Shown: piece by piece, positions 360 through 51,527 of the stretch
Layout of the letters: every line of letters begins with the position of its first letter
Numbering within the stretch: position 1 is the first letter of the stretch
Assembly (NCBI GenBank): GCA_937929945.1
Contig: CALFUK010000012.1
Location: 1 to 64,000 of the forward strand
Direction: 5' to 3'
DNA: 64,000 nucleotides
DNA from: an uncultured Saprospiraceae bacterium
GTDB taxonomy: Bacteria; Bacteroidota; Bacteroidia; Chitinophagales; Saprospiraceae
Position numbers and translations under genes: made by a program
The notes under the pieces: generated by a model
What the model was told of the DNA's origin: nothing
The model's database searches: none
Seen by the model: only the letters and a program-made list of their open reading frames with translations

Positions 360-2858
360 CTACCCTCTTCCGCCTCTTCCACCTTGCTGACCTCCGCCTG
401 ATCCATCATTACCATCGTCTCCTGATTTTAGATCTGTATTTCTGATTTTACTTCTGCGCTCTTTGAAATTGACCTTGCCAAATTTATACCTGAAAGTCAC
501 TCCAATCGATCTGAAAGGTACAGCGAACGAAGACTCCTGCCTGAATCCATTCCCCGTGATATCAGAGTCAAAGCTCTTGAATTCGCTCCACGGCTCGACG
601 ACTCTGATCCCAATACTCGAATTCTTGAAATCTTTTCTGACACCAAATATCAACATGGAAAAACTCGGATTACGGCCTTGAAGTGTATAGCGCGGAGAAG
701 AAAAGATTCCTGTAAAATCTCCTTTGATCGACGAAGAGATCGCCAGCTCCGCGCTGGTAAAGAGACGGTAGGCCAAAGCGCTATTCTCACGCAGCTCTCC
801 GTCTATGACGCCAGAAGCATCATAGGTATTGACATCCCCTCCCCCTCTGAGCGTGACTTTGCCCGCTGTCTTACTCATAAAGATATTGACACCGACAGAA
901 TTATTCAGACCTACGTTATTGAAAGTAGTGCGGGATCGATTGACCGTCTGGTCGCTCACAATGGATTCTATCAGCTCAGATGTCCTGCGATAATAGAGTG
1001 ATCCAAATATGGAGATACCTACGAAATTAGTATTGTACCCTAACTCAATCTGTTTGGTCAATTCTGGCCCTAAGAAAGGATTCCCAAAGCTGACATTTCC
1101 AATATCTGCGTTATTCACAAACGGATTAATGAATCTAAGACTCGGTCGTTGGATCCGTTCGCTGTAGCTCAGCTTCAATGTTCTAAAGTTAGACAGTGTC
1201 TTCGAGATTGCAATGTTAGGTAGGAAGTTATTATAGGCATTTTCAAATTTTTGCTCTGAGACATCCCCATCACCATTAATGATGGTTCTCTCATATCTCC
1301 CACCGACGACAGCATTCATTTTACCGATATAGAAGTTATAGGACAGATAGCCAGCGTATACATCTTGATCATAGAGAAAGCGATTGGATCGGTCGCCATC
1401 AAGATTATCATAACTATTAGTCCCCTCATTAAAGAGGAAATACTCAGCGGCACTGTCAATGGTTCTGATCACTGATTTGATGCCAAGTTCAACCTTGTTC
1501 GCTTTGCCGACAGGATGTACATAGTCTATCTGGGCCGTGACTTCTAAATTATCAGGATCATTGAATATCCGCTCATCTCTTAGGACGAAATTTTCTGTGG
1601 CACTGACGTCTCTTACAGTGTTATCCTGGCTTTGTATTCCCCCAGACAGCTGCACGGCAAAGACTAACTCTCTCTTCTCATTATCCGCAAATTTCTTAGT
1701 GTAATCCGTATTCCAGTCATATCCACTATTGAGCGTACTGCCGAAAGTCGTTCCATTGAAGCTATTCTTCGTCGTCAGGTCACTGGCTAGTCTGAACCAC
1801 TCGCTTGTGCCATCTCTATCAAAGCCAAAGCCTCTGAGATTGATCGAAGTATTAATGGCATTGAAAGCATTAAAATCATAAAAAGCACTGGCTGAGCCTC
1901 CGAAACCGAGCCGAGATTGATTCGTCACCCCTTCTCGTGAGAAAGACACAATACCAGTAGGCACCAAGGTTCTCGTAAATGAGTTATCCGCATCGTTAGG
2001 GACAGAATAATAGACACCTCCATTCGCGCTAAAGCCAAATCGCCCCTTGCCTATATTAAGATTCAGGTTGGCGTTATTTTGCCTGTTGCCAAGAGAAGCA
2101 TTCACTGTACCTGCTATTCCCTCTATGTTGTCCTTTTTGGTGATGATGTTAATGATACCCCCAGACCCCTCACCATCATATTTGGCTCCTGGTGAAGTGA
2201 TCACCTCTACTTTTTTTATCTGATCAGCAGGAAACATCTTGAGTGCATCGGCCGCATTAGCCGAAAACATGCCTGAAGGCTTACCATTAATCAAAATCTG
2301 AATCTGCTGTGAACCACGGAGTGATACATTGCCATCCAAATCAACGGAAAGCATCGGCACCTTTCTCAAGACATCAGTCGCATCTCCACCCGCAATGGAT
2401 GAGTCATCCTCAGCATTGAATACGATTTTATCCACCTTATTTTCGATGAGCGCGCGCTTGTCTTTGATTTCTACGGCATCGAGGACTATGTTATCTTGGG
2501 CCAAGCTGACATTGCCAACTGCATAATCTGGATCCTTAAGCGTCAGAATGACTTCCTCCACTTTTTTAGTCTCATAGCCTAAGAAGGATACCTCTAAAGC
2601 ATATCGGCCATCCTTGATGTCTGTCAGCTTGAAAGACCCATCCTCTTCGGATAGGACACCATTAATCACCTTTTCGGAGCCCTCCTTCATGAGCGAGATC
2701 GTCGCATAGCTGACTGGCTGATTCGTCGCTGGGTCGATGATCTTTCCCGTTATTTTGCCTTTGATCGATGGCCCTTTCTTTCCTCCAAATCCGCCCCACT
2801 GAGCTGACAAATGGAATGAACAAACGAGGCAAAGGATTATGGTAGATAATAATTTCAT
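360..2858 (-). CDS. Outer-membrane beta-barrel TonB-dependent receptor family protein
   Basis: An 832-aa outer-membrane protein. A signal peptide (about residues 1-20, ending SAQ) is followed by a carboxypeptidase-regulatory-like Ig domain (about 32-115, with GKIIDPATNQPVSYA). Next comes a TonB plug domain (about 130-240, with LRKVPMLSVDLDGNVSLRGS and GAKYDGEGSGGIINI), then a long beta-barrel like the OMP_b-brl_3 family. This matches CirA-like receptors of unknown substrate in Bacteroidota. The C-terminus is odd: after a basic stretch it ends in a low-complexity Gly-rich tail (GGGQQGGRGGRG) instead of the usual aromatic barrel terminus. It is monocistronic, and no partner SusD or DUF4249 gene lies beside it. 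The family call is secure; the substrate is unknown. Confidence 0.88.
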   Translation of the reverse strand: MKLLSTIILCLVCSFHLSAQWGGFGGKKGPSIKGKITGKIIDPATNQPVSYATISLMKEGSEKVINGVLSEEDGSFKLTDIKDGRYALEVSFLGYETKKVEEVILTLKDPDYAVGNVSLAQDNIVLDAVEIKDKRALIENKVDKIVFNAEDDSSIAGGDATDVLRKVPMLSVDLDGNVSLRGSQQIQILINGKPSGMFSANAADALKMFPADQIKKVEVITSPGAKYDGEGSGGIINIITKKDNIEGIAGTVNASLGNRQNNANLNLNIGKGRFGFSANGGVYYSVPNDADNSFTRTLVPTGIVSFSREGVTNQSRLGFGGSASAFYDFNAFNAINTSINLRGFGFDRDGTSEWFRLASDLTTKNSFNGTTFGSTLNSGYDWNTDYTKKFADNEKRELVFAVQLSGGIQSQDNTVRDVSATENFVLRDERIFNDPDNLEVTAQIDYVHPVGKANKVELGIKSVIRTIDSAAEYFLFNEGTNSYDNLDGDRSNRFLYDQDVYAGYLSYNFYIGKMNAVVGGRYERTIINGDGDVSEQKFENAYNNFLPNIAISKTLSNFRTLKLSYSERIQRPSLRFINPFVNNADIGNVSFGNPFLGPELTKQIELGYNTNFVGISIFGSLYYRRTSELIESIVSDQTVNRSRTTFNNVGLNNSVGVNIFMSKTAGKVTLRGGGDVNTYDASGVIDGELRENSALAYRLFTSAELAISSSIKGDFTGIFSSPRYTLQGRNPSFSMLIFGVRKDFKNSSIGIRVVEPWSEFKSFDSDITGNGFRQESSFAVPFRSIGVTFRYKFGKVNFKERRSKIRNTDLKSGDDGNDGSGGGQQGGRGGRG

Positions 2859-3054
2859 AGTTTTTTCGCTGCTGTTACACGTCTTTAAATAGAAATAGTC
2901 GAATCAAGTTCAAATAAAACACGATTTTGCGGACTTATCTTGATTAATCGACGATAGCACAAAAATCAACTACATAACCTTACTAAGTCAATAGCACCTG
3001 AAAGCACTCACAGAATTATACAGATATTTCTCATCCAAGTACCAAACTGTTTTT

Positions 3055-3843
3055 TTGGACTATCCTGTGGATCCCATACCGCGATACAATACGGCCAAGG
3101 GGCCGCACGAGTCCCTGCTACATATCATTAGTACCAATAGAGCTGAATATAAAGTATTCCTCCAGGCTATGCAGCAATACATCGCTCGATTAGAACTCAT
3201 CCCATCAGTCCAAACGGACTCAAAGACGCCTTACTGGAGTAATGACTTCTTACCTGCATTGGACACGGCTGCGCTATACACGATGATCTCGAATAAGAAG
3301 CCACAGCGGTACATAGAAATAGGCAGTGGCAACTCTACTAAGGTAGCGGCTCTCGCCATCAGTGATCAACAGCTTTCTACTGAAATAATATCCATCGACC
3401 CTCAGCCGCGAGCAGATGTTTCTGCCTTGGTGGATCAGTTCATCCAGAGCCCCTTTGAAAAACTTGACTTTTTTAAACAAGTCAAAATTGAATCAGGTGA
3501 TCTGTTATTTATAGACAACTCGCACAGACTCCTACCCAACTCTGACGTGATGGTCCTCTTCTTAGAGATACTGCCGCAGCTGCCGACTGGTGTGATCGTC
3601 CATCTGCATGATATATACCTGCCTTTCGATTATCCACAGTTCATGTGTGACAGGTATTACTCAGAGCAGTATATGCTGGCCGCATTTCTGATCAATAATC
3701 CTGAAAGGTACCATACCATCTGCCCAAACTATTTTATCAGCGAAGACAAAGGCTTGAGTCAGCAGTATGAGTGGCTTTGGGAAATTCCAGCATTGCAAGA
3801 GGCAGAACAGCACGGCGGATCTTACTGGATAGAAATCAGATGA
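3055..3843 (+). CDS. Class I SAM-dependent methyltransferase-like protein
   Basis: A protein of about 262 aa. The core contains YIEIGSGNSTKVAA (about residues 90-103), which fits the glycine-rich SAM-binding motif I. EIISIDPQPRA follows as the acidic end of strand 2, then GDLLFIDNSHR and VIVHLHDIYLP, as in Methyltransf_24-type proteins that modify small molecules or glycans. The start is uncertain: TTG at 3055 gives the length above, while the first in-frame ATG is about 38 codons later. The frame is open upstream to 2995. It stands alone and converges on the DUF1254 gene. Fold assignment is from motifs; the substrate is unknown. Confidence 0.65.
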   Translation: MDYPVDPIPRYNTAKGPHESLLHIISTNRAEYKVFLQAMQQYIARLELIPSVQTDSKTPYWSNDFLPALDTAALYTMISNKKPQRYIEIGSGNSTKVAALAISDQQLSTEIISIDPQPRADVSALVDQFIQSPFEKLDFFKQVKIESGDLLFIDNSHRLLPNSDVMVLFLEILPQLPTGVIVHLHDIYLPFDYPQFMCDRYYSEQYMLAAFLINNPERYHTICPNYFISEDKGLSQQYEWLWEIPALQEAEQHGGSYWIEIR

Positions 3844-3868
3844 GTGTAGCATCAGACGACTCAGACCA

Positions 3869-4393
3869 TCAAGGAATCTGAAGTGCATTAAGATAATCAC
3901 TAATCGCTTTTTGATGAGCCTCATCCCGCTCCGCTACTAACACTCTGATCAACACAAAGCCTGTCTTTTCAGGAGACACGATCTGCTCGATATCTGCCTC
4001 CTGATCCATTGCATCATCGCTAATGATGATGTTCAGCGTATCCGAGTCATACTGCATATCGTTCTTGACATAAAAATTGACAGTATTCTCTTGATATAAA
4101 GCGACTGACCAATAAATAGAATCAGGCATAGCTCCCAAAATATGAATCGGACCGTCAGTGAGATCGTAAAATAGTGTGGCGTATGCAAAATCAGGATTCG
4201 GCTTGACGACCAGCTTAGCGTTTTCATCGGGCGCCATCAGGACGCTAAACTGATTGACAGCCGCTCCAGGTCGACTCAGTGCCATCTTAGAGAATCGACT
4301 GTAAATATAATCTGGCAAATAATGAATGGCCACAGTGCGACCCACCAAGGCAGAAGCACAAAACAGTAAGAAATAAATGAGTGTCTTTTTCAA
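3869..4393 (-). CDS. DUF1254 domain-containing membrane-anchored protein
   Basis: A 174-aa protein with an N-terminal hydrophobic segment (about residues 3-22) and a body typical of DUF1254: PNPDFAYATLFYDLTDGPI followed by DSIYWSVALYQENTVNFYV. DUF1254 proteins commonly sit next to DUF1214 proteins, and here the start codon overlaps the stop of the DUF1214 gene by four bases (ATGA), indicating translational coupling. The biochemical role of these families is not established, and location in the inner membrane or periplasm is inferred. Its partner is interrupted by a stop codon, so the pair may no longer be functional. Confidence 0.72.
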   Translation of the reverse strand: MKKTLIYFLLFCASALVGRTVAIHYLPDYIYSRFSKMALSRPGAAVNQFSVLMAPDENAKLVVKPNPDFAYATLFYDLTDGPIHILGAMPDSIYWSVALYQENTVNFYVKNDMQYDSDTLNIIISDDAMDQEADIEQIVSPEKTGFVLIRVLVAERDEAHQKAISDYLNALQIP

Positions 4394-4995
4394 TTGACTT
4401 TGATAATTTCTGGCAACGCTATGGTGGCTAAATTTTCATACACAGTGGGAGACGCATTATATAACCTAAGTGTGATACTGAGAGCCTTATTGTTGCCCGC
4501 CGGCAGCCAGTTACCCTCTTGCTGGTCAGCCGATATTTTAATTTGATATTGATCTATCCATTGATCGCTGGCTTCTGGATTGAGCGTGTCACGCGGCACG
4601 TAGTCCATGGTCGCAGCATTGTAGCCATAGCGCTGGTCTTGATTAGGTATGAGATAATCATCAGCTCCGTATAAGGTATAGCTCCAGTACCTGGCGTCTG
4701 GCACGACTCCCGTCAGCACATAATCATAGGCTTATGACAAAGGCTCACCGGCGCTGTCTACTGTGGCATTATAATAGATGACCTCTGACTCCCGCAAGGC
4801 GAATAGCCCTACCAATGCGATCAGTGCTCGCTGTCGAGGCTGCTGTAGATCCATCACGGGATTGACTCTCCAGGGCCCATTAGCTAGCATAAAGTCCGCC
4901 TCCTGGCTGGTACGCTTCAGATCATACAGCGCATAGGCTCCTCCTGCAGACAGACCAGCAAGGCAAATGACAAGACCGATTATGAGTGATTTCAA
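4390..4995 (-). pseudogene. DUF1214 domain protein split by an in-frame TAA
   Basis: Two adjacent pieces in the same reading frame add up to one protein of about 201 residues. The upstream piece (from 4995) has a signal or anchor sequence and ends with GEPLS at a TAA (4732-4734). The downstream piece continues without any frame change as AYDYVLTG and then PDARYWSYTLYGADDYLI, the conserved DUF1214 core. DUF1214 proteins are usually close to 190 aa, so the joined length fits. Only one nonsense codon separates them. A downstream GTG at 4717-4719 could start a truncated C-terminal protein of 109 aa. Readings: recent nonsense mutation, sequencing error, or readthrough. It overlaps the DUF1254 gene by four bases. 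Confidence 0.75.
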
Positions 4996-13509: not shown

Positions 13510-16356
13510 TTATCTCAGCTGGATCATCTTAGCACTAAGAATTTCGCCTCGATATTCGAGTTGATAGTGATGGACTCCTCGACTCTCAAGCTCGCTGATT
13601 GTCAGCTCATTGAGACCTGCAGGATAGCTTGATTCATCTCTGCGGATCAGCCTGCCTGATGCATCATATATGGTCAAGACAGCCGTATCAGCCTCTGGAA
13701 TCATGAATGAAATAGTCGTCTGATATTGAAATGGATTGGGCACATTCTGATGCAGGGCAAATGGCTCTTCTGCTACCGCTTCTATCTTATTAAAGCTGAG
13801 ATCATAAGTCTGCAGCCCAGCACCTACATATATTTCATTAGACATGTCTTGCAGCTGCTCTATCGTAAGAACATCCTCAGTGTAGATGGTGAATAAAGGG
13901 TCATCGCTGAGCATCACACCATTTGGGTCATGCCAGCACATTTTAAAATGATTGTCTTTCAGGTAGTAATTCGTTCTGTCAAAGTTCAATTGGGCGGGCT
14001 GTATCGAGAGAAAGCTTTGCTCTAAGTCCTTCACATCAAACTGAAATCCAAAAACTGGTTGTTCTGATTTAAGCGAAAAATTATATGCATAGTAGTTATC
14101 TGTCACTTTTCGTTCGCTGTAGTCTATGCTAATGATTTTGTCTGACCGAGTCTCTACATCTAATTCCTGCTCAGACTCAAGGCTGTTATTCACGTCTCCA
14201 ATTTTGACCCCAATAAAGTTCTGATCGCTGTAATCCGCATTGGATTCCGTAAGCTGCCGCCCTATTGAGAATGGCCAAGGATCCAGTGGATCAGCGAATT
14301 CACTAGATTCATCGATAAAATGCCAGTTGATACCATGACTCCACTGCTCTATCACGCCGATAATCATTCTTCTCATGACGATGATATCCACGACAGACAC
14401 CTCATTATTCAGACTAATATCAGCAGCTATCATTTTATAAGGTGTCTCTAAGGTATCCAGGCGCAGAATATGCCGCTGGATGAGCAGTATATCCAATGTA
14501 GTAACACCATCAATCGGCAAATCTGAGCGGTCACCCAAGAGTGAATAATTATCCCTCGCACTAATACTCTCAAACGAAAACATTCCAAAAGAATCTGATA
14601 CTGCTGTATAGCTAGTATCAAACTGATTAGGCGTCAGGCGGAGCATTACATCTGGAATGGCTCTGCCTATGTCAGTAGCTATTTGACCCGATAAAGTCAC
14701 CAAGCTATCCATGATTATCAGTGAGTCTTGCATAGCAGTAGAATCTATCGTCATTGTATCTATCACAGTCATCGTATCCACCATCGTCAGCGTGTCGACC
14801 ATCATCATGGTATCCACCATCATCATTGTATCTGCCATTGTCATTGTGTCCACCATAACCATCGTGTCCACCATCATCATTGTATCTACTATCATCATGG
14901 TATCCACCATTGTCATCGTGTCCACCATTGCCATCGTATCGACAATCATCATCGTATCCACCATTGTCAGAGTATCTACCATCGTCATCGTATCTACCAT
15001 CGTCAGAGTATCTACCATCGTCATCGTGTCTACCATCTCCATTGTATCTACCATCATCATTGTGTCTACCATCATCATTGTATCTACCATCTCCATTGTA
15101 TCTACCATCATCACTGTGTCTACCATCGACATTGTATCTACCATTGCCATCGTATCAACGATCATCATTGTATCTACCATCGCCATCGTGTCAACCATCT
15201 CCATTGTATCTACCATCATCACTGTGTCTACCATCGCCATTGTATCTACCATCGCCATTGTATCTACCATTGCCATCGTATCTACTATTGCCATCGTATC
15301 AACGATCATCATTGTATCTACCATCGCCATCGTATCTACCATTAATGAGTCAAGCATGTCTATGGTATCTAGTATTGGTGCTCCTATTGATAGTGTAGTA
15401 CTGAAGAGGTTATCACTGGTTTTGATCTGGATGAAATCCTCGCCTATTTCGCTTAGCTCATAGCAATATTCTGCCATGCCATCCTCAGAACTAACTGCAA
15501 TGATGGTATCGGGATGAACTCCATCGATGATGATATTCAGAGGAATATCAGCTAATAGATTGTTCGTCACGTTTTCGAAGATCATGATATTTATGCAGGC
15601 CATACCACCTACATTTCCAGTATTATTAAAATCAAGAATAGAAATGGTATAATTCAACTCTCTCCCAAGACACTCGCAGCTCGGGGATAAAATATCCACA
15701 GGCGTAGCTGCATTGCCATCATCACAGGGATCCCCCGGTAGCTTATCATCTGTGCAGTCTGCTACCAATATAGCACAGGGATCACAGGCTGCACCACCAC
15801 AATCAATCCCTTCTTCATCTCTATTTTGGATTCCATCTGTACAGTCTCCGCAGCTAGCTGCGTACTCTGCATCATCGATTATATCTGTGACCTCACAATC
15901 ATTAGCATCCGTCACTGTGATACTCGTCGGACTCGTAATGGCAATCATTTCCATAGTATCCGATTGGCCATCCCAATTATAGCTATAAGGGGAGGTTCCA
16001 CCCACTACATTAGCTGTAGCACTGCATTCACTTTGAAACTCTAATTGAATATCTACGATAAATGAATCTGGCTGTGTGATGACTCTTGAGCAAATACTCT
16101 GGTCTCCCCTGATGTTGGTCAGCGTGACACTATAACTACCAGCTGGAAGTAACGAGATCGTGGGTAAGGTATCACCACTGCTCCAGGCTATATCCAGTGA
16201 GTCGAGCTCGGCATTACTATCTACTGACATCTGGCCATCTGAGCCTCCAAAGCAGGTGACATCAGAGACTCGGAGTATTTCACAGTTCAGTTCTTCTTGA
16301 GCACTGATGACTACTGCCCAACATATGCAAACAGATATTACGAAAAGTCGGCTCAT
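13510..16356 (-). CDS. T9SS-sorted surface protein with about 33 MVDTMx hexapeptide repeats
   Basis: A 948-aa secreted protein. Signal peptide 1-19 (ending ISAQ); the N-terminal region has SprB-like repeat features (CFGGSDGQMSV, SLLPAGSYSVTLTN) and a Cys-rich GIDCGGAACDPC motif. Residues about 339-537 are roughly 33 tandem hexapeptides, nearly all M/I-V-D-T-M/L/V-x. They are followed by a carboxypeptidase-regulatory-like domain, a dockerin-like segment (AADISLNNEVSVVDIIVM), the conserved WPF and IGVKIGDVNNS block, a cohesin-like domain and a type A Por sorting domain ending in KMIQLR. This is the architecture of the 624-aa neighbour with an inserted repeat array. Cell-surface display is inferred from the sorting domain; the function of the repeat is unknown. 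Confidence 0.85.
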   Translation of the reverse strand: MSRLFVISVCICWAVVISAQEELNCEILRVSDVTCFGGSDGQMSVDSNAELDSLDIAWSSGDTLPTISLLPAGSYSVTLTNIRGDQSICSRVITQPDSFIVDIQLEFQSECSATANVVGGTSPYSYNWDGQSDTMEMIAITSPTSITVTDANDCEVTDIIDDAEYAASCGDCTDGIQNRDEEGIDCGGAACDPCAILVADCTDDKLPGDPCDDGNAATPVDILSPSCECLGRELNYTISILDFNNTGNVGGMACINIMIFENVTNNLLADIPLNIIIDGVHPDTIIAVSSEDGMAEYCYELSEIGEDFIQIKTSDNLFSTTLSIGAPILDTIDMLDSLMVDTMAMVDTMMIVDTMAIVDTMAMVDTMAMVDTMAMVDTVMMVDTMEMVDTMAMVDTMMIVDTMAMVDTMSMVDTVMMVDTMEMVDTMMMVDTMMMVDTMEMVDTMTMVDTLTMVDTMTMVDTLTMVDTMMIVDTMAMVDTMTMVDTMMIVDTMMMVDTMVMVDTMTMADTMMMVDTMMMVDTLTMVDTMTVIDTMTIDSTAMQDSLIIMDSLVTLSGQIATDIGRAIPDVMLRLTPNQFDTSYTAVSDSFGMFSFESISARDNYSLLGDRSDLPIDGVTTLDILLIQRHILRLDTLETPYKMIAADISLNNEVSVVDIIVMRRMIIGVIEQWSHGINWHFIDESSEFADPLDPWPFSIGRQLTESNADYSDQNFIGVKIGDVNNSLESEQELDVETRSDKIISIDYSERKVTDNYYAYNFSLKSEQPVFGFQFDVKDLEQSFLSIQPAQLNFDRTNYYLKDNHFKMCWHDPNGVMLSDDPLFTIYTEDVLTIEQLQDMSNEIYVGAGLQTYDLSFNKIEAVAEEPFALHQNVPNPFQYQTTISFMIPEADTAVLTIYDASGRLIRRDESSYPAGLNELTISELESRGVHHYQLEYRGEILSAKMIQLR
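14747..15343 (-). repeat. 18-bp coding minisatellite encoding MVDTMx hexapeptides
   Basis: About 33 copies of an 18-bp unit lie head to tail inside the 948-aa protein gene, read on the minus strand as M-V-D-T-M-x. Units keep the V-D-T codons and vary mainly at the sixth residue (A, T, M, E, S, V). Blocks such as VMMVDTMEMVDT recur, the pattern expected from unequal exchange or slippage. The unit length is a multiple of three, so copy number can change without a frameshift. The opposite strand is also open across the array, which is a by-product of the repeat. Confidence 0.95.
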
Positions 16357-16552: not shown

Positions 16553-17827
16553 ATGGAAGCTTATGCTCAAATCTTAACATATATCATCCCTGGCTTCGTC
16601 TTATTGATCATCATAGAGGCAATCATAGCCCGAATCATGGGCATGAAGGTATATCGATCAATGGATACGATTTCGAGCTTAAGTTCTGGATTGACGAATA
16701 CGCTTAAGAGTCTACTGGGTCTTTCTATTGTCATCGTAAGCTATACCTGGATGGTGGATCACCTCGCATTATTTGAAATAAAGTCGAGTCTACTTTTATA
16801 TTTCATGACATTCATCGGATTAGACTTCGCTGGATACTGGTCACACCGATTTAATCACGTAGTCAATATCATGTGGAATAGACACATCATACATCACAGC
16901 AGTGAGGAGTATAATCTCGCATGTGCCCTGCGTCAAACGGTCAGTGGTTTTGTGGGTGTGTACTTCTTCCTATACGTTCCGATGGCATTCATTGGCATCC
17001 CTGCTGAGGTGATAGCTGTGGCAGCTCCCATACACTTATTCTCTCAGTTCTGGTATCATACCAGAGTCATCAAGCGGATGGGATTCTTAGAGCACATCCT
17101 GGTCACGCCCTCTCACCACCGAGTCCATCATGCGATTAATCCTATCTATATTGATAAAAACTACTCTGAAGTGCTTATCATCTGGGATAAGTGGTTTGGG
17201 ACTTTCCAAGAGGAGCTGGATACCGAGCCCCCTGTGTATGGCACTAAGATGCCAGCAGAAACATGGAACCCGCTGATCATCAACTTCATGCACCTCTGGC
17301 TGCTGATGAAAGATGCCTGGCTGACTAAAAGCTACAGGGACAAATTGAGAATATGGTTTATGCCGACTGGATGGCGGCCAGCGGACGTCACAGAAAAGTA
17401 CCCCCTAACGATGACAGAAGATGTGCATGCGCGAAAAAAATATCAAACCTCAGCTTCACGAGCACTTCATATTTGGTCTTGGACTCAGCTGATTGCACAT
17501 AACCTATTGATCTATTACATCTTGAGTTTTATTGTCACTTTTGATTTTACAGCCATCGTGCTTTATGTCACATTTGTGATGGTATCCATATTCAGTGCTA
17601 CCACACTGATGGATCGACACTCTCTGGCACTGCCAGTAGAAGTGATTAAGGCAGGACTCGGGCTGACTCTCATATGGTGGTACCAGGGCTGGTTCGATCT
17701 TGATGTTGTTATTCCCTACGCTACTTGGATGATGTGTTTATATTTATTGGCTTCATTGATCATGACGATTTACTTTACAAAGTATGACAAAATCAATGAA
17801 GCCAACAGTACACTTACTGCAGTGTAA
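16553..17827 (+). CDS. Sterol desaturase / fatty-acid hydroxylase superfamily protein
   Basis: A 424-aa integral membrane protein with several hydrophobic segments (about 8-28, 52-68, 80-95, 125-150 and more near the C-terminus). The di-iron histidine clusters of the superfamily are present: HRFNH at 98-102, HIIHH at 111-115, and SHHRVHH about 75 residues later. Members use O2 to hydroxylate or desaturate lipids; the length and the C-terminal membrane extension resemble alkylglycerol-monooxygenase-like bacterial proteins. It converges, 12 bases apart, on the heme/thrombospondin-repeat protein gene and is otherwise isolated. Substrate unknown; membrane lipid or sterol-like compounds are likely. 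Confidence 0.88.
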   Translation: MEAYAQILTYIIPGFVLLIIIEAIIARIMGMKVYRSMDTISSLSSGLTNTLKSLLGLSIVIVSYTWMVDHLALFEIKSSLLLYFMTFIGLDFAGYWSHRFNHVVNIMWNRHIIHHSSEEYNLACALRQTVSGFVGVYFFLYVPMAFIGIPAEVIAVAAPIHLFSQFWYHTRVIKRMGFLEHILVTPSHHRVHHAINPIYIDKNYSEVLIIWDKWFGTFQEELDTEPPVYGTKMPAETWNPLIINFMHLWLLMKDAWLTKSYRDKLRIWFMPTGWRPADVTEKYPLTMTEDVHARKKYQTSASRALHIWSWTQLIAHNLLIYYILSFIVTFDFTAIVLYVTFVMVSIFSATTLMDRHSLALPVEVIKAGLGLTLIWWYQGWFDLDVVIPYATWMMCLYLLASLIMTIYFTKYDKINEANSTLTAV

Positions 17828-17839
17828 AAAAATGAATCC

Positions 17840-20518
17840 TTAATTACAGGCTTCTATATCAGCTAAGAAGATAGCGCCCAACTTGACTTCAAAACTTTCT
17901 TTGAGTACGATACTTGTACCTGCTCTATAGCTTATATTATTTGCAGGCTGGATGATTCCGTTTGACTGGATATTGATTCTAGCCCGTCGATCTGATCGGA
18001 TCAGATCATACGTGAGCTCAGCTATGAAGTTCAGACAGGGCGAATTATCACAGCCATCAGGAATACCATCACCATCTGAATCGACTGCATCATCAAAGCC
18101 TGCACAGACATCACAGCCATCGCTGACATTATCTCCATCAGTATCCACGGCATCATCAAAGCCGGGACATATGTCACAGCCGTTGGGGATACCATCACCG
18201 TCAGAATCAATCGTATCATTAGAGCCCGCACAAATATCTAGGTCATCACAAATGCCATCATGATCGCTATCATTGAGCGCAGAATCAGGACACACATCAT
18301 TCTGGTCGCAGATGCCATCCATATCTGTATCTGGTGATTGGGGCGTACATGGAGTACAGTATGAATATGTCAGTCCATCCACTCTAATCACTCCTAATCC
18401 ACCATCTTGAATCTTAATGGCCTGAGGACCTGATGAGGAAGCCGTGAAGCACAACTGCTGTGGTTCAAAATTTGCGTCGCCCGTCTGATTATAGATATAA
18501 AATGAGCTACCATTTACATCAAAATCAACTCTTCCGATACCAGAGCTAAAACCTACAGTGAGGCATATTTCTGCCCCAACTTCCATGTCTGGCGTAGTCA
18601 GATTCAGTATATCATTATTTCCTGATATTGATCCTGTCATAGTACCATCTGGAACTCCTCCAGCATTAGCTGGATTATTGATGCCTTGGGCACTACTATA
18701 TACTGCGCTTCCTGTAGTAGTATTAGCACTGCACTGGCAGCTGGGTGTATTATATGCTGGATCAGCTACGGCACAGGGACAGTAGTTATATCTAGAGCCA
18801 TCCACAACCAGAGTGCCCTTTCCTGATCTTGATACAGCTACCGTCTGCACACCTTCTTGAAATACCTCAAAGCAATATTCATAACCCGAATAATTAGTAT
18901 CTCCGGAGACATTATCAAAAAAGTAATTTCCAAGTCCATTCACATTGAATTTGACAGCTCCATCTACATCGTTGAAGCCAATGGTAAAACAAATGACCTC
19001 CCCTATTTCTAAATATGGAAATTCTATCACTAACTCATCAAAATTTCCAACAACTCCAGATGGTTGACCATTAGCTAATCCACCTGCTAGTTCTGGCCGA
19101 TTGGGAACACCCACATTGGAGACATATGTGCCTCCCGCTGTCATGGTACCAGCTGGGCAAAAGCAGCTAGGTGTAGGATCATATCCATTCTCATCTATAC
19201 ATGGCACCAGATCATCTAGATCACCCACACCTACAGTGATACCATCTCCATCACAATCATTTGTGGGCAGGGCTGTCCATCCTGCTGGCTCTGGGAGACC
19301 CAATACTCCATCCGCAGTACATGGATCATTAGGCATTTGATCTGTAGCATCACAGATACCATCTTGATCAGAATCGGCTGTGGGTGTCCCCTCACAGTTA
19401 CATGAATCATTGTATCTATCATCAATCGTACAGACTAATCCGTCATCACAAGCTGTACCAATAAGATCGTTGTCAAAACCAGGGCAGAAATCAATCGCAT
19501 CGCAGTGTCCGTCTCCATCACTATCAGGAGATCCTACAGGACAGGCACAATACTCAGGCGCTCCACTATTGATCCAAGATTGGATCATAGCTAGCTCATC
19601 ACTATCCATTGCTCCACCCACACGAGAATTCATACTGTTGCCTCTGATGGGAGTACCACATCCCACAAAGCCAGCGGTTGTGATCACGCCCACTAGGTTA
19701 TTGGGTGTCAGAATACCAGGGCCACATTTATTACCTCCAGCTATCATTGCATCATAGGATGTGAGGCTGAGACCACCTGATCCATTATTACCGTGGCAGC
19801 CGGTGCAGCCATTATCTTCAAAGAGGGCTCCCATGACATCCCAGCCATAGAGACCATTATCACATTGGTCATCGTCATTATCCACATAGTTAGGCGGCTG
19901 ATTGCATTGGATGATAGCCTTTGTGGGATCTCCCAGCCCGTCTCCATCCGTGTCAGCATACCAGCTGATCTCCCCAGGGCCATCACAGACACCACAGACA
20001 TCTTTCGTGCCATAGCACGCTGTATGATCAATATCAAACCGCACTTCACTTAGTGACACACAGAATATATTAGTGTAACTTGATTTTGCCGTAATTAAGA
20101 TTTTCTTGGCAAACTGCCCACCCATGTCGGTGACTTTGACACCAGCATATGTCGCAGATTCATCAGCTTGTGGCAAGACAAATGAGCCCAGTGAAATCCA
20201 AGTGACACCATCCTCAGAATAATCTATGACCATGTCTTTAATCCCGTATTGACTTTCGTTGGTTCTATTGGCATTCCATATCCAGATATCATTTATCGCT
20301 TCAGCTTGATCAAACTCAAAGGCTATCCAATTACTAATGCCATGCACTGGGTTGGGATTAATCACCTTCAGACATGACACCCAGCTATCCTCCCACACAT
20401 TGTTATCCTCCAGGCACTGTTGCTGTGCTTGTGAGCTTACGGCTAGCATGCACATCAATGCTAGAAAGACTGATGTAGTACGCAGGCGGGATATGATTAC
20501 AGTTGACATTTGACTCAT
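17840..20518 (-). CDS. Secreted multidomain protein: discoidin, c-type heme, thrombospondin-3 repeats, coathanger C-terminus
   Basis: An 892-aa secreted protein. A signal peptide (about 1-32) leads into an F5/8 type C-like beta domain (about 35-165). A cytochrome-c-like domain follows: CTGCH at 238-242 is a heme-attachment motif, and GNSMNSRVGGAM with DELAMIQSWINSGA (about 293-320) is the usual distal segment, with Met296 or Met304 as possible axial ligands. Acidic DxDxDG calcium repeats of the thrombospondin type 3 kind surround two Cys-containing beta domains (about 460-590 and 600-725). The end (about 825-892) resembles the 3-coathanger stack domain. It is the third gene of an operon with DUF1800 and DUF1501, 13 bases after the latter. 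Electron transfer at the surface is inference. Confidence 0.8.
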   Translation of the reverse strand: MSQMSTVIISRLRTTSVFLALMCMLAVSSQAQQQCLEDNNVWEDSWVSCLKVINPNPVHGISNWIAFEFDQAEAINDIWIWNANRTNESQYGIKDMVIDYSEDGVTWISLGSFVLPQADESATYAGVKVTDMGGQFAKKILITAKSSYTNIFCVSLSEVRFDIDHTACYGTKDVCGVCDGPGEISWYADTDGDGLGDPTKAIIQCNQPPNYVDNDDDQCDNGLYGWDVMGALFEDNGCTGCHGNNGSGGLSLTSYDAMIAGGNKCGPGILTPNNLVGVITTAGFVGCGTPIRGNSMNSRVGGAMDSDELAMIQSWINSGAPEYCACPVGSPDSDGDGHCDAIDFCPGFDNDLIGTACDDGLVCTIDDRYNDSCNCEGTPTADSDQDGICDATDQMPNDPCTADGVLGLPEPAGWTALPTNDCDGDGITVGVGDLDDLVPCIDENGYDPTPSCFCPAGTMTAGGTYVSNVGVPNRPELAGGLANGQPSGVVGNFDELVIEFPYLEIGEVICFTIGFNDVDGAVKFNVNGLGNYFFDNVSGDTNYSGYEYCFEVFQEGVQTVAVSRSGKGTLVVDGSRYNYCPCAVADPAYNTPSCQCSANTTTGSAVYSSAQGINNPANAGGVPDGTMTGSISGNNDILNLTTPDMEVGAEICLTVGFSSGIGRVDFDVNGSSFYIYNQTGDANFEPQQLCFTASSSGPQAIKIQDGGLGVIRVDGLTYSYCTPCTPQSPDTDMDGICDQNDVCPDSALNDSDHDGICDDLDICAGSNDTIDSDGDGIPNGCDICPGFDDAVDTDGDNVSDGCDVCAGFDDAVDSDGDGIPDGCDNSPCLNFIAELTYDLIRSDRRARINIQSNGIIQPANNISYRAGTSIVLKESFEVKLGAIFLADIEACN

Positions 20519-24053: not shown

Positions 24054-27000
24054 CTATTTCAGCAAGATCATCTTACGTGTCTCTACTTGATCATCGTATC
24101 GGACTTGGTAGTACATGATACCAGATGATAGTAGATCGTCTGCCTTGAGCACGACTGTATGCTGACCCTGCCCTAAGAGAGCTGTCTCTTTGTGCAGCAG
24201 CTTTCCACTGACATCGAAGACCGTGGTCTCTACCATACCTGTAGAAGGTACAGAGATATTGATCACCGTATTATCTGCGAATGGATTTGGCTGATTCTGA
24301 CTCACAGCAAATACATCAGTACGCGGCTCATCAAAGACCAGTGTGATCTCATGTATTGCTAAATCTTCGCCTTGGTATGCTTCAGATACAATATCCTCCA
24401 GTGAAAGCCGAAGCATATCACTCAGCATACCAGACTCAGTCGCTCTGAAGTCTATGTAGAATAATGCCTGATCATCCGAGATAGCTCTGGTATCATTCCA
24501 ACTGATTCGAGTTGATGCCGCCTGATTATTCAGGTTAGAAGCTCCCCAGCCCAGCACCTCACTGCCACTCGCTGCATAGTCCAGACCTGCGTGCTCTAGT
24601 GAAAGCTGGAAGCCTAATAAGTGTTTAGCGTCGCTCACAGATACTTCTATGGTAGCAGTCTCTCCTTTGGTCAGATATCTATCTTCTATATGGAATTCGA
24701 CTGGTGCCTCACTAGTCCTGATTTCTGTTCTCCCGAAGCCTTGGAGTGAGGCAGTGCCATTGACATCACCTACTTTGATGGCTATGAAGTTTTGATTATC
24801 CAGACTCTCTTCCAAGTTACTGATGCTGATGACCGTCTGAAGTGGCCATGGTGATAGCGTATCGGCAAATGTTTGACCAGCAGGGATGATGACCCAGCTA
24901 TCACTGTTTGGAAAGCGATTGACATTACCGACGATCACGTTTCTGAAGGTTATAATATCACTGACCGATACGGAGCTACTCGCATCCGCATCTGCTGCAA
25001 TGACCTTGAACGGACTGTCTAATAGCTCACTGCCTAAGATGTGTTTCTGAATCAGCACTAAATCCAATGTGGTCACCCCATTCAATAGCTGATCGTCATA
25101 TGCTGCACTCAGTCTGTAATCTTGGAATAGCGCATTGTTATTAAAGACATACGATCCGTCATTAGCAGATTGGGTCATTCTCGAAAATTCTACTTGTGTG
25201 GTATCAGCATTAAGAAGCGTAATGGCTACATCAGACAGAACTTCTCCTAATAGAGTCGTCACTGCACCTGTGATGAATACACCACTACTGTCTACCATAC
25301 CGGGGCCCATACCTGATGTATCTACAGGAGCGCTGCAGTCCGCTTGAATTCTGATATCGATCTCACACTTAGCTCCATTTCTGGAAGAATCCCAGACCCA
25401 TATATCAAATGATCTGGAGGTATCCACATTTTCACATTCTATTTCAATCGACCTCTGTGTCGAGAATGCGACTTCTCTCGGATTAATCGGTGTGACATCT
25501 CGAGGGACTATGCTGTATCGGAGATTATTAGGCACCGTACAGTTATCGATACTATTCAGATTGAAGTCAGAAGCGACAATGGTCGTAGACATACTATCTG
25601 CCACAGCTACGACTGGTGAAGTAGACAGGCATATAGGCGTCGGAGGAGTGACATCATCGAATCTAATGGTCGTCACTTTCGAGGCCTTATTGCCACAAGC
25701 ATCAGTCACTTCGATCAGTACAAAATAGACAAAGCCTTCATCTCCTGATCGGGTGCTCAATGTAAACTCTGAACCAGTGAAATTATACTCACTCAAGCCT
25801 TCATCATCAAATACGGGGAAGCCAATAAAATTCCTCACTCTTACTCTCCAATCCAAGTCGCCACTTAGCTCCGAAGCACCACATACATCAGATGCTGATA
25901 TGGTCAGAGAATCTATGCCTGAACAACCGAGCGGATTACCATTACTATCTAATTCTCTATCAGTACTAACAATGAGGGTATCAGGCGCATTAATGATTGG
26001 CTCTGAGTCATCATCAAGCGATATGATCTGCTCATAGGTATAGATACCATCTCTGGAAATTCGCGAAGGAACATACCGCACATAGGTCAATGAGCCATCT
26101 CCTGAGCAGGACTCACATCCATTCCTAAGATCTTCGACTGCCTCAAAATTCATAGCAGCAAGATCATCTGCTCCATCATCTGGACGACCAAGAGCGGTGT
26201 ATGTACACCAGTCTATGATCGTATGCCGTACAAATACTTGGACACAAGCGCCTGATTGATTCACCACTGAATCTATCTCTGAGGAGTAGGCTAATAAATC
26301 ACAGCTGGATTCGCACCACGTCGCCGTGCCAAATCCATCATCAGGATTAGAACAGATGACTGGATCTCCTAAAAATATGTTGTCTACGATTTCTTCGCTC
26401 ACAGTCGTACTGTCAGCACAGGTCAGCCTGACACCTGCTAGTGAGCTACCATTGCGCGGCGCCGGCCATCTGATCGTCAGAGGGTCAAAGGCATCCTCTG
26501 CTGATATGGTGATCAACTGAGTACAGCTGGTCTCGATACTATCGACAGCCCCATTGGCATTAGAGTCGATGTACCAGGTCCGACTGATCGTACCTAAGCC
26601 ACATGTATCTATCTCCGTAGAGTTATCTATGAATGATAGCTCAGCTGTGAAACTGCATAAGCCAGCACCAGTAATCTCAGGTCTATTTTCCGCTGCATTG
26701 ACATCATCTACACACTGGATATTGAGTGGACCACATGCGATGGCGACTGACGGATCGAATACGCTCACAGTCGTCCTACAGGATGTTGAAACCGCATCAC
26801 CATCCTTAGTCACGACCGTGACAGCTACTCCCTCTAAGTCTTCACAACATAAGGTAAGAGTCGATTTACACAGGACATAAGGCAGTGTCCTTTCTTCTCT
26901 GATGGATCCATCTTGGTTAAGTATACTTTCTATAAATTCGTCATCTACACTACAGGCATTAGCTGCTGTATAAGCTACCTCTCCATCTACCATAACCACA

Positions 27001-30000
27001 TCTCCCGTAGATAGGGTGACAGCTCCGGCATTGAAATCTACGGTCCTGATGATGCAGTAATCATCCGCATTAGTCGTGACTCCCAGATCTGACAGTCCTA
27101 AAGTAAACTGTCCGTCTCCCGCTGCTCCAAGATCAGTCACGGGTATACTCACAATATCATCACTGCATTCAAATGAAATCAATGGATTACAGAATCGATT
27201 GTTATCGGTGATATCCACATCGATGCGACACTGGCTGATGATGCCTTCCTGACTACGTGTCACGACCACCACTTCCTTAGCACCGATCTCATCACAGCAT
27301 ACTTCTATGGTTTCTTGACAGACCGCGAAGCTGATACCATTGACCATGCCATCAGGACTACAGCCTTCGACATATCCAAATGCGATCTCTCCCGTACCAG
27401 GATTCACGCTTCCTGCATCAAAATTCGCTGCGTACACGAGACATCGATTCACCAGGATGTCCTGTCCATTCGCAGTGATTGTCTCTACTGCTTGGATGCC
27501 GAGATCTGACAATGACAAGCTGGTAGCTACGTCTATTTGAGTATCTATCCTTGTCGCTGCATTATTAAATGACTGCGTAATGGTGAATGGGATCGGAGTC
27601 TCAATATCCTCATCCAAGACCGTGAAGCAATACTGTGCTATCACACTCTCACTACTCAGGGTGACAGCATTATCAGAGCTATAGGCACCTGAGATGGACC
27701 CATTATCAGCATCTACAGTAGCTATATCACAGCCTATGCCTGCCACTAAGCCGTTATTACAGCTGAGGTAGCCGTAGGCAGCAGCGTTCCATCTCAATGT
27801 ATAGTTGAGCATATTGAGATCACTAATTTCTCTTGCGATAAGATTACCACATACCGTATCTCCATTCATGGCCAAGAGATCAAAAACAATCCGTTCAGAA
27901 TTTTCAATTACAATGGAGCTGTCTCGTACAAATCCTCCAGCTTCTCTGAAGACACTCATCTGCGTAAAGGTGGTATCTAAGGTGAGAATGGTATCAAATA
28001 CCACAGCTGAATCAACTCCAACGAATGTCTGGCTGATCACTGGGACTGAATCCTGAGATGCGGTGGTGACAATTGTTGTCATTGTGTCAATGGTGAGGGT
28101 CGTATCTCTTGCAAAGATGGTATTGATTACAATAGAGGTATCAGTCCTCACGAAATTACTATCCAGCGTCAGAATGGTATCAATGACTAAGGTCATACTA
28201 TCGATGACGAATACACTATCCACGAGCATACTATCAATCACAAAGCTACTATCCACCATCACAGCTGATGTATCAATATCAAATACATCAGTCACTATGG
28301 TGACAGTGTCCATGACTTCCATGCTATCAATCAGGAAGGTCGAGTCGATCCGAATCATCGTATCCATGACGAATACACTATCAAGAACGAACATCGTATC
28401 CGCTGTAAATGTAGAGTCAAAGACTGTCATACTACTGGTCATGATACTGGAGTCAATCGACGCTATGATATTCTGTATGACCAATACACTATCAGGTATT
28501 TTAGTCGTCGTAATAACGAGCATCGAATCTGTCGTACTCATCGTATCCACCGTGATGATGCTCTGAAATATCGTCGTGGTATCCATCATAGCCACACTGT
28601 CCACGCTAAATACATCTACCAGAGTAAAGACTGTATCTACTCTAAATCCACCCTGACCGACCAACATACTGTCCAGCATAAACATGCTATCTATGACAGT
28701 ATTCATCGTGATCACGTCCATGGAGTCTACCCTTTCAAAGCTGCGATTCACCACGAAGCTGGAGTCAAAGGTACTGGTGCTGACGAAGGTGGTATCCATC
28801 ATGAATATCGTGTCCATAACGATCATGGTATCCATACCCATAATGGTGTCAAACCCAACGAATACATCTTGTATCATAGTCATAGTATCTACCATAATCA
28901 TGGTATCAATAGATGACAACACACTATCCATCACCAGCATGGAGTCGATGATCATCATGCTGTCCAGGTCAAACATGGTGTCTCTGACGAACATGCTATC
29001 TGGTGTAAACATGCTGTCTATGACAAATGAGGTCGTATCAAAACTGATGATCGTATCCACTCTAAATATGGAATCTAACTGATCCATACCCCCGATGACT
29101 TCATTAGTAACAATGGTAAACATTGTAGAATCAATGCTTATAATCGTATCAGGCATCATCATCGTATCGATGACGAGCATACTATCTATAGTAAAAATAG
29201 AATCTGTAACAAGCATCGTATCATTCACCACACTGGAGTCAACACCTGTCAATACCTGTGTTACCACGAAAGCAGAATCCATGGTGGCCACGCTATCAAA
29301 CCTGATGATCGAGTCGGTCCTCAGAAACATAGAATCAAGCTCAAAGACTGTCACCGTACTGCTGATGGTATCCGTACCGACCACACTGGTATCAAAGGTC
29401 ATCGTAGTGGTAAAAACTAAAGAGGTGTCCATAATCATGATGCTGTCGGCGACAAACATGCTGTCGATCACAAGTATTGTATCTGTGGATCTGATGGTAT
29501 CAATCGTAGATGGATTACCCGATAGATCAAAGGACAGTACATCTGCTGTCTCTGTAGGACTGTCGACGGAAGCTGTCGTGATGGTGCTGTCAGCCAAGGC
29601 TGTAATATCAAAGGTGAAAGCTAAGTCATCGGGACAGTCAAAGCCTGTATCCGTCACTGGATCGGTCGGCTCTGGCATGGTGACCATCGTATCCATGGGT
29701 ACAGTGACCATCGTATCCACTGGAGTAACGACCATCGTGTCCACTGGCGTGACGACCATTGTATCTTGCCCACCTCCCATATCAGGGTTATCCTCCATAC
29801 ATCCGATCAGCGTGAGGTTAATCACCGCATTAAAGCTCTCTCCAATGCTTTGACCTTCGCCCCACTCTACGACTAAGGTGTTTTGACCTAATAAATTAAT
29901 CGCGGGGAATCCTCCTGAAAGGATCTCATCTCTTTCGGCAAGCGTGACCTCATTCACATCGGCACCGAGATCTATGTAGAATCTGTAGAACTGACCTGCT

Positions 30001-30830
30001 CTGATGGTTCTGGGTCCTATGCTACCGGTCTGATTCCAAGTGAATTCTATCGCTTGAGATTTAAAATCAATATCGTATATGTCTGATACAGAGACGAGTT
30101 CTGCAGACCCTTCGGCCATCACGACTAGAGAACTATCATTCAGTATCACACTCTCTGATCCGTCATTCGTATCAGCGTCCTGAAAAGTGGATCTCACACT
30201 GACAGTCTGCCCCTCTAAAGTACAGGCGAGACTGGGATTAAATACAGCTGTGGGATTGCCATCAGGCATATTCGGGTTTTCTTCATTAGGCTCTTCTTCT
30301 CCTGTATTGATGGCACTTCCTAAAGTGATCTGGACGCGGCAGGTGTCGATATTCACACCATCCTGAGATTCTATTATGGTAATATCTCTTACACCAAGTT
30401 CATTTTCGCAAAAGCGGAGTGTCGATTCACACAGGACGAATAATATCGTATCGACATTGATGGTATTACCCGCAGAATCTTGCTCAGAGAAGAGGCGGTC
30501 TCCAGAAGAGTCGCAGCCATTGTTAAACCGATAGGCTGGATTCTCATTGACAAATATAGTATCTCCATCAGGCAAGGTAGCTGGACCAAAATCAAAGTCC
30601 ACGGACCTAAGCATACAGAGATCTGTCCCTTGATCATTAGTCACTAAGTCAGAAAGATTTACGACATACATACCTGTGCTGCTGTCCAGTAAGGCATCAG
30701 GATCAAACGTCGCATCTGGCGGGCATTCTAATAAGTTATTTGATTCTACTGCCTCAAAACCAGTTGAGAAAGTGACTAAGGCAGTCACAATGAGAGCAGC
30801 AATCACAGCATTAATTGATTTCTTTTTCAT
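24054..30830 (-). CDS. Giant T9SS-sorted surface protein with degenerate D-S/T-M repeats
   Basis: A 2258-aa secreted protein. Signal peptide about 1-25. The N-terminal part contains repeated modules with a Cys pattern (DLCMLRSVDFDFGPATLPDG and VLCESTLRFC) that reappear near residues 1150-1390. Residues about 441-970 are a long low-complexity array built on x-x-V/I-D-S/T-M/V/I, related to the exact hexapeptides in the 948-aa protein. Later come a Cys-rich block (VRHTIIDWCTY, NFEAVEDLRNGC) shared with the 1377-aa protein, HYR-like beta domains, a carboxypeptidase-regulatory-like domain, a dockerin-like segment (AADADASSSVSVSDIITF), a cohesin-like domain and a Por type A sorting domain (NQPNPFADNTVINISV). 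Surface adhesin or scaffold is inferred. No enzyme domain was seen. Confidence 0.85.
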   Translation of the reverse strand: MKKKSINAVIAALIVTALVTFSTGFEAVESNNLLECPPDATFDPDALLDSSTGMYVVNLSDLVTNDQGTDLCMLRSVDFDFGPATLPDGDTIFVNENPAYRFNNGCDSSGDRLFSEQDSAGNTINVDTILFVLCESTLRFCENELGVRDITIIESQDGVNIDTCRVQITLGSAINTGEEEPNEENPNMPDGNPTAVFNPSLACTLEGQTVSVRSTFQDADTNDGSESVILNDSSLVVMAEGSAELVSVSDIYDIDFKSQAIEFTWNQTGSIGPRTIRAGQFYRFYIDLGADVNEVTLAERDEILSGGFPAINLLGQNTLVVEWGEGQSIGESFNAVINLTLIGCMEDNPDMGGGQDTMVVTPVDTMVVTPVDTMVTVPMDTMVTMPEPTDPVTDTGFDCPDDLAFTFDITALADSTITTASVDSPTETADVLSFDLSGNPSTIDTIRSTDTILVIDSMFVADSIMIMDTSLVFTTTMTFDTSVVGTDTISSTVTVFELDSMFLRTDSIIRFDSVATMDSAFVVTQVLTGVDSSVVNDTMLVTDSIFTIDSMLVIDTMMMPDTIISIDSTMFTIVTNEVIGGMDQLDSIFRVDTIISFDTTSFVIDSMFTPDSMFVRDTMFDLDSMMIIDSMLVMDSVLSSIDTMIMVDTMTMIQDVFVGFDTIMGMDTMIVMDTIFMMDTTFVSTSTFDSSFVVNRSFERVDSMDVITMNTVIDSMFMLDSMLVGQGGFRVDTVFTLVDVFSVDSVAMMDTTTIFQSIITVDTMSTTDSMLVITTTKIPDSVLVIQNIIASIDSSIMTSSMTVFDSTFTADTMFVLDSVFVMDTMIRIDSTFLIDSMEVMDTVTIVTDVFDIDTSAVMVDSSFVIDSMLVDSVFVIDSMTLVIDTILTLDSNFVRTDTSIVINTIFARDTTLTIDTMTTIVTTASQDSVPVISQTFVGVDSAVVFDTILTLDTTFTQMSVFREAGGFVRDSSIVIENSERIVFDLLAMNGDTVCGNLIAREISDLNMLNYTLRWNAAAYGYLSCNNGLVAGIGCDIATVDADNGSISGAYSSDNAVTLSSESVIAQYCFTVLDEDIETPIPFTITQSFNNAATRIDTQIDVATSLSLSDLGIQAVETITANGQDILVNRCLVYAANFDAGSVNPGTGEIAFGYVEGCSPDGMVNGISFAVCQETIEVCCDEIGAKEVVVVTRSQEGIISQCRIDVDITDNNRFCNPLISFECSDDIVSIPVTDLGAAGDGQFTLGLSDLGVTTNADDYCIIRTVDFNAGAVTLSTGDVVMVDGEVAYTAANACSVDDEFIESILNQDGSIREERTLPYVLCKSTLTLCCEDLEGVAVTVVTKDGDAVSTSCRTTVSVFDPSVAIACGPLNIQCVDDVNAAENRPEITGAGLCSFTAELSFIDNSTEIDTCGLGTISRTWYIDSNANGAVDSIETSCTQLITISAEDAFDPLTIRWPAPRNGSSLAGVRLTCADSTTVSEEIVDNIFLGDPVICSNPDDGFGTATWCESSCDLLAYSSEIDSVVNQSGACVQVFVRHTIIDWCTYTALGRPDDGADDLAAMNFEAVEDLRNGCESCSGDGSLTYVRYVPSRISRDGIYTYEQIISLDDDSEPIINAPDTLIVSTDRELDSNGNPLGCSGIDSLTISASDVCGASELSGDLDWRVRVRNFIGFPVFDDEGLSEYNFTGSEFTLSTRSGDEGFVYFVLIEVTDACGNKASKVTTIRFDDVTPPTPICLSTSPVVAVADSMSTTIVASDFNLNSIDNCTVPNNLRYSIVPRDVTPINPREVAFSTQRSIEIECENVDTSRSFDIWVWDSSRNGAKCEIDIRIQADCSAPVDTSGMGPGMVDSSGVFITGAVTTLLGEVLSDVAITLLNADTTQVEFSRMTQSANDGSYVFNNNALFQDYRLSAAYDDQLLNGVTTLDLVLIQKHILGSELLDSPFKVIAADADASSSVSVSDIITFRNVIVGNVNRFPNSDSWVIIPAGQTFADTLSPWPLQTVISISNLEESLDNQNFIAIKVGDVNGTASLQGFGRTEIRTSEAPVEFHIEDRYLTKGETATIEVSVSDAKHLLGFQLSLEHAGLDYAASGSEVLGWGASNLNNQAASTRISWNDTRAISDDQALFYIDFRATESGMLSDMLRLSLEDIVSEAYQGEDLAIHEITLVFDEPRTDVFAVSQNQPNPFADNTVINISVPSTGMVETTVFDVSGKLLHKETALLGQGQHTVVLKADDLLSSGIMYYQVRYDDQVETRKMILLK
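27920..29510 (-). repeat. Degenerate D-S/T-M repeat tract in the 2258-aa protein
   Basis: About 530 residues dominated by Asp followed by Ser or Thr and a hydrophobic residue, spaced mostly six residues apart (IDSMLV, MDTIFM, VDTMTM). Copies are diverged at both DNA and protein level, unlike the near-identical array in the 948-aa protein gene. Some units are lengthened by inserts such as QDVFVGFD that themselves recur (TQVLTGVD, SQTFVGVD). Edges are approximate. Confidence 0.8.
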
Positions 30831-50852: not shown

Positions 50853-51527
50853 CCAAAATATCAGAAAGCAGATATGGCACTTATGGACAAAGAAAAAACA
50901 ACACGGTACAAAGACAAATACAGAACCACCACCACCCGAGCACCATGATGGGATTATGGCAGGAATGCCGCCTATTTCATTACCATTTGCACCAAGCATC
51001 GAAAACATCATTTCGGACAAGTCGTGGATGGCATCATGCAGTTATCTGCGATAGGCCATATCGCCAATTCATGTTGGCACCAGATCCCAGCCCATTTTCC
51101 ATTTGTCAAATTAGGTGCCCATATCATCATGCCCAATCATGTAGAGACGCAAAATCTTGCGTCTCCACTGGACCAACCAAAACAAACAATCCAAACAGAC
51201 CAACCACCCAAAACAGATCAACCAACCCAAACAGACCAAACACCCCAAACCGACCAACCACCCCCCAGATCCACAAACACCACAAAAGGACCATCACCCC
51301 ATCCCCAAAAAAACAAATTCGGCCCCCAATCCAGAAACCTAGCATCCATCATCAGAGGATATAAAACGGGAGTAACAAAGAATGCACGGCAGATCAATCC
51401 AGATTTTCATTGGCAATCAAAATACCATGACCACATCATCAGAGACAGTGGGGCATATGGCCGTATTTCGAGCTACATCATCGACAATCCCAGAAAGTGG
51501 AGCGCCGATACATTATATACTGGATAG
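50853..51527 (+). pseudogene. Decayed REP-associated (Y1/IS200-like) transposase
   Basis: One continuous frame from 50853 carries the family sequence KYQKADMAL, RYKDKYRTTTTRAP, then a TGA stop at 50946-50948, then WDYGRNAAYFITICTKHRK, LSAIGHIANSCWHQIP, FPFVKLGAHIIMPNHV, LASIIRGYKTGVTKNAR and YHDHIIRD. This is the order found in Bacteroidota REP-associated tyrosine transposases. Besides the in-frame stop, the HUH motif expected as NHVH reads NHVE, because the sequence jumps directly to ETQNLASPL. A Q/T/D/P-rich insert of four hexapeptides follows. No start codon with a good context was found. The element is non-functional. Terminal repeats were not identified. Confidence 0.8.
51170..51330 (+). 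repeat. A/C-only 18-bp minisatellite within the transposase remnant
   Basis: Between 51181 and 51300, 109 of 120 bases are A or C, with 7 G and 4 T. Four in-frame copies of an approximately 18-bp unit encode [Q/K]TDQ[P/T][P/T]. The extreme strand asymmetry is unlike any neighbouring sequence. Confidence 0.85.

Follow-up and report, generated by a model that had tools for sequence, protein, structure and literature searches.

Low-complexity linkers rich in Glu, Asp and Gly are already known from the cargo proteins of the type IX secretion system (T9SS). Bacteroidota also have an O-glycosylation motif, D-[ST]-[AILVMT] (PMC8729774, PMC12871550), whose +2 position is occupied by Met in about 2% of the mapped sites and whose transferase was still unknown in a 2025 review (PMC12871550); in Cytophaga hutchinsonii, one domain of a T9SS cargo protein is reported to be glycosylated (PMC11858162). 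Two further repeat types share features with the locus described here: the left-handed beta-helix hexapeptides (PF00132 type), which follow the rule [LIV]-[GAED]-x-x-[STAV]-x, and the TSP3-like calcium-binding repeats with their DxDGDG loops. We analysed a window of 64,000 nucleotides from an uncultured Saprospiraceae bacterium (contig CALFUK010000012.1 of assembly GCA_937929945.1, the whole stretch being what we call the window), in which a predicted T9SS cargo protein carries a long array of hexapeptides. This array is probably an over-expanded, acidic, low-complexity spacer or stalk between domains, placed before a C-terminal module for export or anchoring. It is unusual in its length and regularity and is rare in our sample of the phylum.

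The array and its host protein

The features used below are the following.

13510 to 16356, minus strand: predicted T9SS cargo protein of 948 aa carrying the array (ORF and profile matches)
14746 to 15339, minus strand: 33 in-register hexads V-D-T-[MLV]-x-[MIV] (TRF, unit counts)
14686 to 15390, minus strand: the array extended by the degenerate D[ST]-phi units at either end, as submitted to AlphaFold2 (AF2) (listing of D[ST] sites)
13513 to 14700, minus strand: C-terminal module, with CarboxypepD_reg-like, dockerin-like and T9SS tail parts (common to more than 50 homologs in the genus)
16553 to 17827, plus strand: sterol-desaturase-like gene, divergent neighbour and synteny anchor for the orthologs in genomes G001 and G002 (ORF, synteny)
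24054 to 30830, minus strand: second predicted T9SS cargo protein, 2258 aa, with an irregular D[ST]-phi array at about residues 356 to 996 (profile matches, site listing)

The hexads follow one another in tandem, as found both by TRF and by column counts. Over the 33 units, the six columns read V31/A1/I1, D33, T33, M28/L3/V2, a variable position x (M11, T9, A8, E3, S1, V1) and M26/I6/V1. A DNA pattern of three units has 32 matches in the window against 0.00 in shuffled sequences, which excludes a chance origin of the array. The original observation of a hexapeptide array is thereby confirmed, with the correction that its gene lies on the minus strand; open reading frames antisense to it were taken as by-products of the repeat. 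An assembly artefact is unlikely, given 27 distinct DNA units. Degenerate D[ST]-phi units flank the hexads on both sides, and the stretch from residue 330 to 555 has 38 D[ST] sites. The array is acidic and is devoid of K, R, G, P, N, F, Y and W. No Pfam model matches it with E values up to 10, in line with the earlier view that the repeat belongs to no named family.

The 948-aa protein starts with a signal-peptide-like N terminus, followed by a SprB repeat (28.7 bits for a cut-off of 28), the array, a sub-threshold CarboxypepD_reg match, a dockerin-like stretch and a T9SS type A tail. The latter scores 24.8 bits with TIGR04183 (cut-off 23), although the Pfam tail model PF18962 remains at 21.4, under its cut-off of 27. 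By its sorting domain, the protein is classed as a T9SS type A cargo and is predicted to be secreted, as had been proposed.

A hypervariable junction

Many proteins encoded in this genome, and in two genomes of the same genus, have the C-terminal module. What precedes the module in these proteins? Among 56 distinct homologs, the stretch directly before it is short (median of 10 aa), hypervariable and acidic, with 24% of D+E and 0.7% of K+R, compared with 16% and 5% in the whole proteins. The presence of such a stretch at the junction occupied by the array supports the spacer reading. The array shares with acidic T9SS linkers the junction, the acidity, the lack of basic and aromatic residues and the hypervariability. 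It differs from them in its length, about 20-fold the median, in its strict periodicity, in the hydrophobic character that Val and Met give it, and in the absence of Gly.

Homologs and neighbours give further views of this junction. In one congener homolog (L083), a short run made up of a handful of D[ST]-phi units occupies it (PLDTIVMDSMPVDTMIVDTMAMAS). Another congener protein (L090, on G002:C103, minus strand, 1807-4629) has 20 DSMLV pentads slightly upstream of the module, and a MopE-type motif comes after its array. The syntenic orthologs in G001 and G002, which we identified through the divergent sterol-desaturase-like neighbour, have a DUF7507 domain and Asp-rich DxDGDG repeats in place of the array. 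These repeats were recognised by eye, with no Pfam TSP3 match; they resemble the array in being Asp-rich and in lying between the same domains, but the array lacks the DxDGDG loop and has hydrophobic rather than polar residues between its Asp. The 2258-aa protein of the window and its orthologs have long irregular D[ST]-phi arrays. In the window protein this array has about 74 D[ST] sites and is longer than the hexad array, while the tail and CarboxypepD_reg matches are under the Pfam cut-offs. In the related arrays the core D-[ST]-hydrophobic is kept, with a period of 5 or with irregular spacing (5, 6, 7, 12 and 13 residues). D arrays were found in 6 of 296 genomes of the phylum, including this one, and control arrays with E in place of D in 0 of 296. 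Another pattern scan, of genome contigs, mixed DNA microsatellites with real arrays, and we drew no phylum statistics from it.

Divergence of the units

The units had been described as nearly identical and, by implication, as still changing in copy number. Near-identity holds for the protein. It fails for the DNA, where 27 of the 33 units are distinct and the mean identity is around 78%. Moreover, neighbouring units are no more similar in DNA than random pairs (0.786 vs 0.782, p = 0.37), and a signal of similarity at lag 3 (p 0.011) was lost when considered across 15 lags. Given this divergence and the lack of extra similarity between neighbours, current copy-number change is unsupported in the window, and we rejected recent slippage of this array. 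The D and T columns have a pN of 0, with a pS of 1.2 for D and 0.6 for T, so that synonymous change is saturated. The V column has a pN/pS of 0.12 and x is nearly neutral; five of the six positions look constrained. Hence, the units are old and diverged, held by selection on the protein, without recent copying. Copy-number change does apply to the congener paralogue L090, whose DSMLV units exist in just two DNA forms: these pentads are a recent expansion in a genome of the genus.

Stalk, glycan carrier or beta structure

A short D[ST]-phi spacer would have grown by duplication of its units long ago, and V-D-T-phi would since have been kept by purifying selection. At its hypervariable junction, the resulting stalk, probably of extended conformation, would hold the N-terminal SprB-type domains off the cell surface. 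A plain acidic spacer leaves the strict conservation of T, V and Met unexplained. Two further kinds of explanation, by structure and by modification, were weighed.

The structural explanation was raised originally as a left-handed beta-helix or a ladder of Met and Asp, with putative binding of Ca2+ or Cu or a role as oxidant sink. The array has the six-residue period and the V-D start (i and i+1) of the hexapeptide rule, and MxM pairs occur in 21 of 33 units. However, position i+4 is in [STAV] in 19 units and is not small in the other 14, the Pfam hexapeptide profile gives no match to the array (E up to 10), and relatives have a period of 5 or an irregular one. The suggested AlphaFold check gave no solenoid: run on the array from its single sequence, without alignment, AF2 returned a pLDDT of 35 and a pTM of 0.11, with no strands. 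Perfect repeats are a known source of over-predicted beta-solenoids in AF2 (PMC11795689), and for this reason the negative outcome counts somewhat, even if a single-sequence run is weak evidence. These results argue against a left-handed helix without disproving it. The missing fold also speaks for the spacer, though weakly as a sign of disorder. The Met residues on which metal binding or oxidant scavenging would depend are not conserved in the relatives, which have DSMLV or F, I and V at the Met positions. We thus regard this version as highly improbable, and Met-based chemistry is not what the comparison of sequences suggests. A broader version, in which the array folds into a regular beta structure, as a solenoid or as an amyloid-like cross-beta fibre assembling on the cell surface, deserves somewhat more credit but is still unlikely. 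The conservation of five of six positions fits it, as do the beta-prone composition, the alternating preference for Phe in the irregular arrays and the scattered strands that AF2 tentatively places, with low confidence, in the irregular array. Still, the fold of that array is not confident either (pLDDT 30), the spacings of the relatives vary, there are no turn residues, the dense negative charge is accompanied by no positive residue, and sequence matches to the PDB are weak only.

The explanation by modification is that a Bacteroidota O-glycan is attached to the T or S in every D-[ST]-phi unit, making the spacer a dense, putatively glycan-bearing stalk. This is a possible but less certain addition to the spacer reading, and we hold the addition only as a minority view. 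In its stronger form, the array would be primarily a glycan carrier, a mucin-like stalk with each D-T-M modified and with selection acting for the sequon; more generally, the D-[ST]-phi arrays (33 hexads, about 74 sites in the neighbour, 20 pentads in the congener) would be dedicated, dense O-glycan carriers in a lineage that otherwise shows no preference for the sequon. We consider both of these rather doubtful. The sequon fits all 38 sites of the array, all 20 of the DSMLV array and 132 of 151 in the irregular arrays, and export of the protein is predicted. Both D and T stay invariant while synonymous change is saturated, the core persists whether the period is 5, 6 or irregular, aligned orthologs freely exchange S for T and T for S, and arrays with D exist in the phylum sample where those with E do not. 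On the other hand, few of the mapped sites have Met at +2, and the conservation of V and of the second Met goes beyond what the sequon needs. Cargo of the P. gingivalis T9SS even tends to avoid the motif.

Where the glycosylation system is active, the sequon is reported to be enriched among exported proteins across the genome. In this genome it is not, with an O/E of 0.71 (n=360) for exported and 0.93 for cytoplasmic proteins, and the probability of a hydrophobic residue after D[ST] shows no preference (0.40 vs 0.43). Over 855 kb of the genome, exported proteins are depleted in the motif, with an O/E of 0.65 in those with a signal peptide and 0.79 in the cargo-like ones, against 0.90 in cytoplasmic proteins. 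The Chitinophaga control (G102, L267-L273) has an exported O/E of 1.75, with phi at 0.64 against 0.45 in the cytoplasm. These figures should be interpreted with caution, since proteins were sorted into classes by simple rules on signal peptides and tails, and the controls rest on small samples. Furthermore, the Bizionia control shows little enrichment (1.09), and the missing enrichment in this genome is accordingly not decisive. In the exported proteins of the family enrichment is not clear, and lineages may differ in their use of O-glycosylation, given the difference between Chitinophaga and this genome or, less clearly, its family. We identified no glycosylation locus. The gene metG has no flippase or glycosyltransferase neighbours here, nor in Chitinophaga, Bizionia or Prevotellaceae; a metG-linked locus was set aside as a criterion because the linkage is uninformative outside Bacteroides. 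Two other potential signals were also discarded. High retention of D and S/T between orthologous arrays is mostly an effect of the aligner, and the retention of D[ST] sites exceeds a block-shuffled null only modestly (0.83 vs 0.71, sd 0.04). The irregular arrays have no Phe at +2, but it is nearly absent at -2 too, so that a beta-like alternation explains its avoidance equally well.

The spacer reading and its glycosylated variants have different implications. As a mere spacer, the array would clearly illustrate how the expansion of a junction linker lets T9SS surface proteins change their reach. If its units are glycosylated, it offers a ready-made dense acceptor for studying Bacteroidota O-glycosylation, and if such arrays are O-glycan carriers, they could be a bacterial counterpart of mucin stalks.

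Other repeats were seen along the way. Members of the family encode six-residue arrays unrelated to D[ST] (GLSLVN, GIPLVN and ALVDxx) in MBG-domain subtilase-like proteins (L023, L027, L032, L039), and genome G034 has long collagen-like GxDGRDG arrays (L028, L037). Hexads of the D[ST]-phi type are present near the N terminus of lipoprotein-like proteins of Zixibacteria, Fibrobacter and Ignavibacterium (L103, L107, L130, L169). Within the window itself, positions 51171-51264 contain a tandem repeat of period 18 (CCAAACAGACCAACCACC), and positions 18047-18232 contain three Asp-rich, TSP3-like repeats of 63 bases in an 892-aa protein with a GCX_COOH end.
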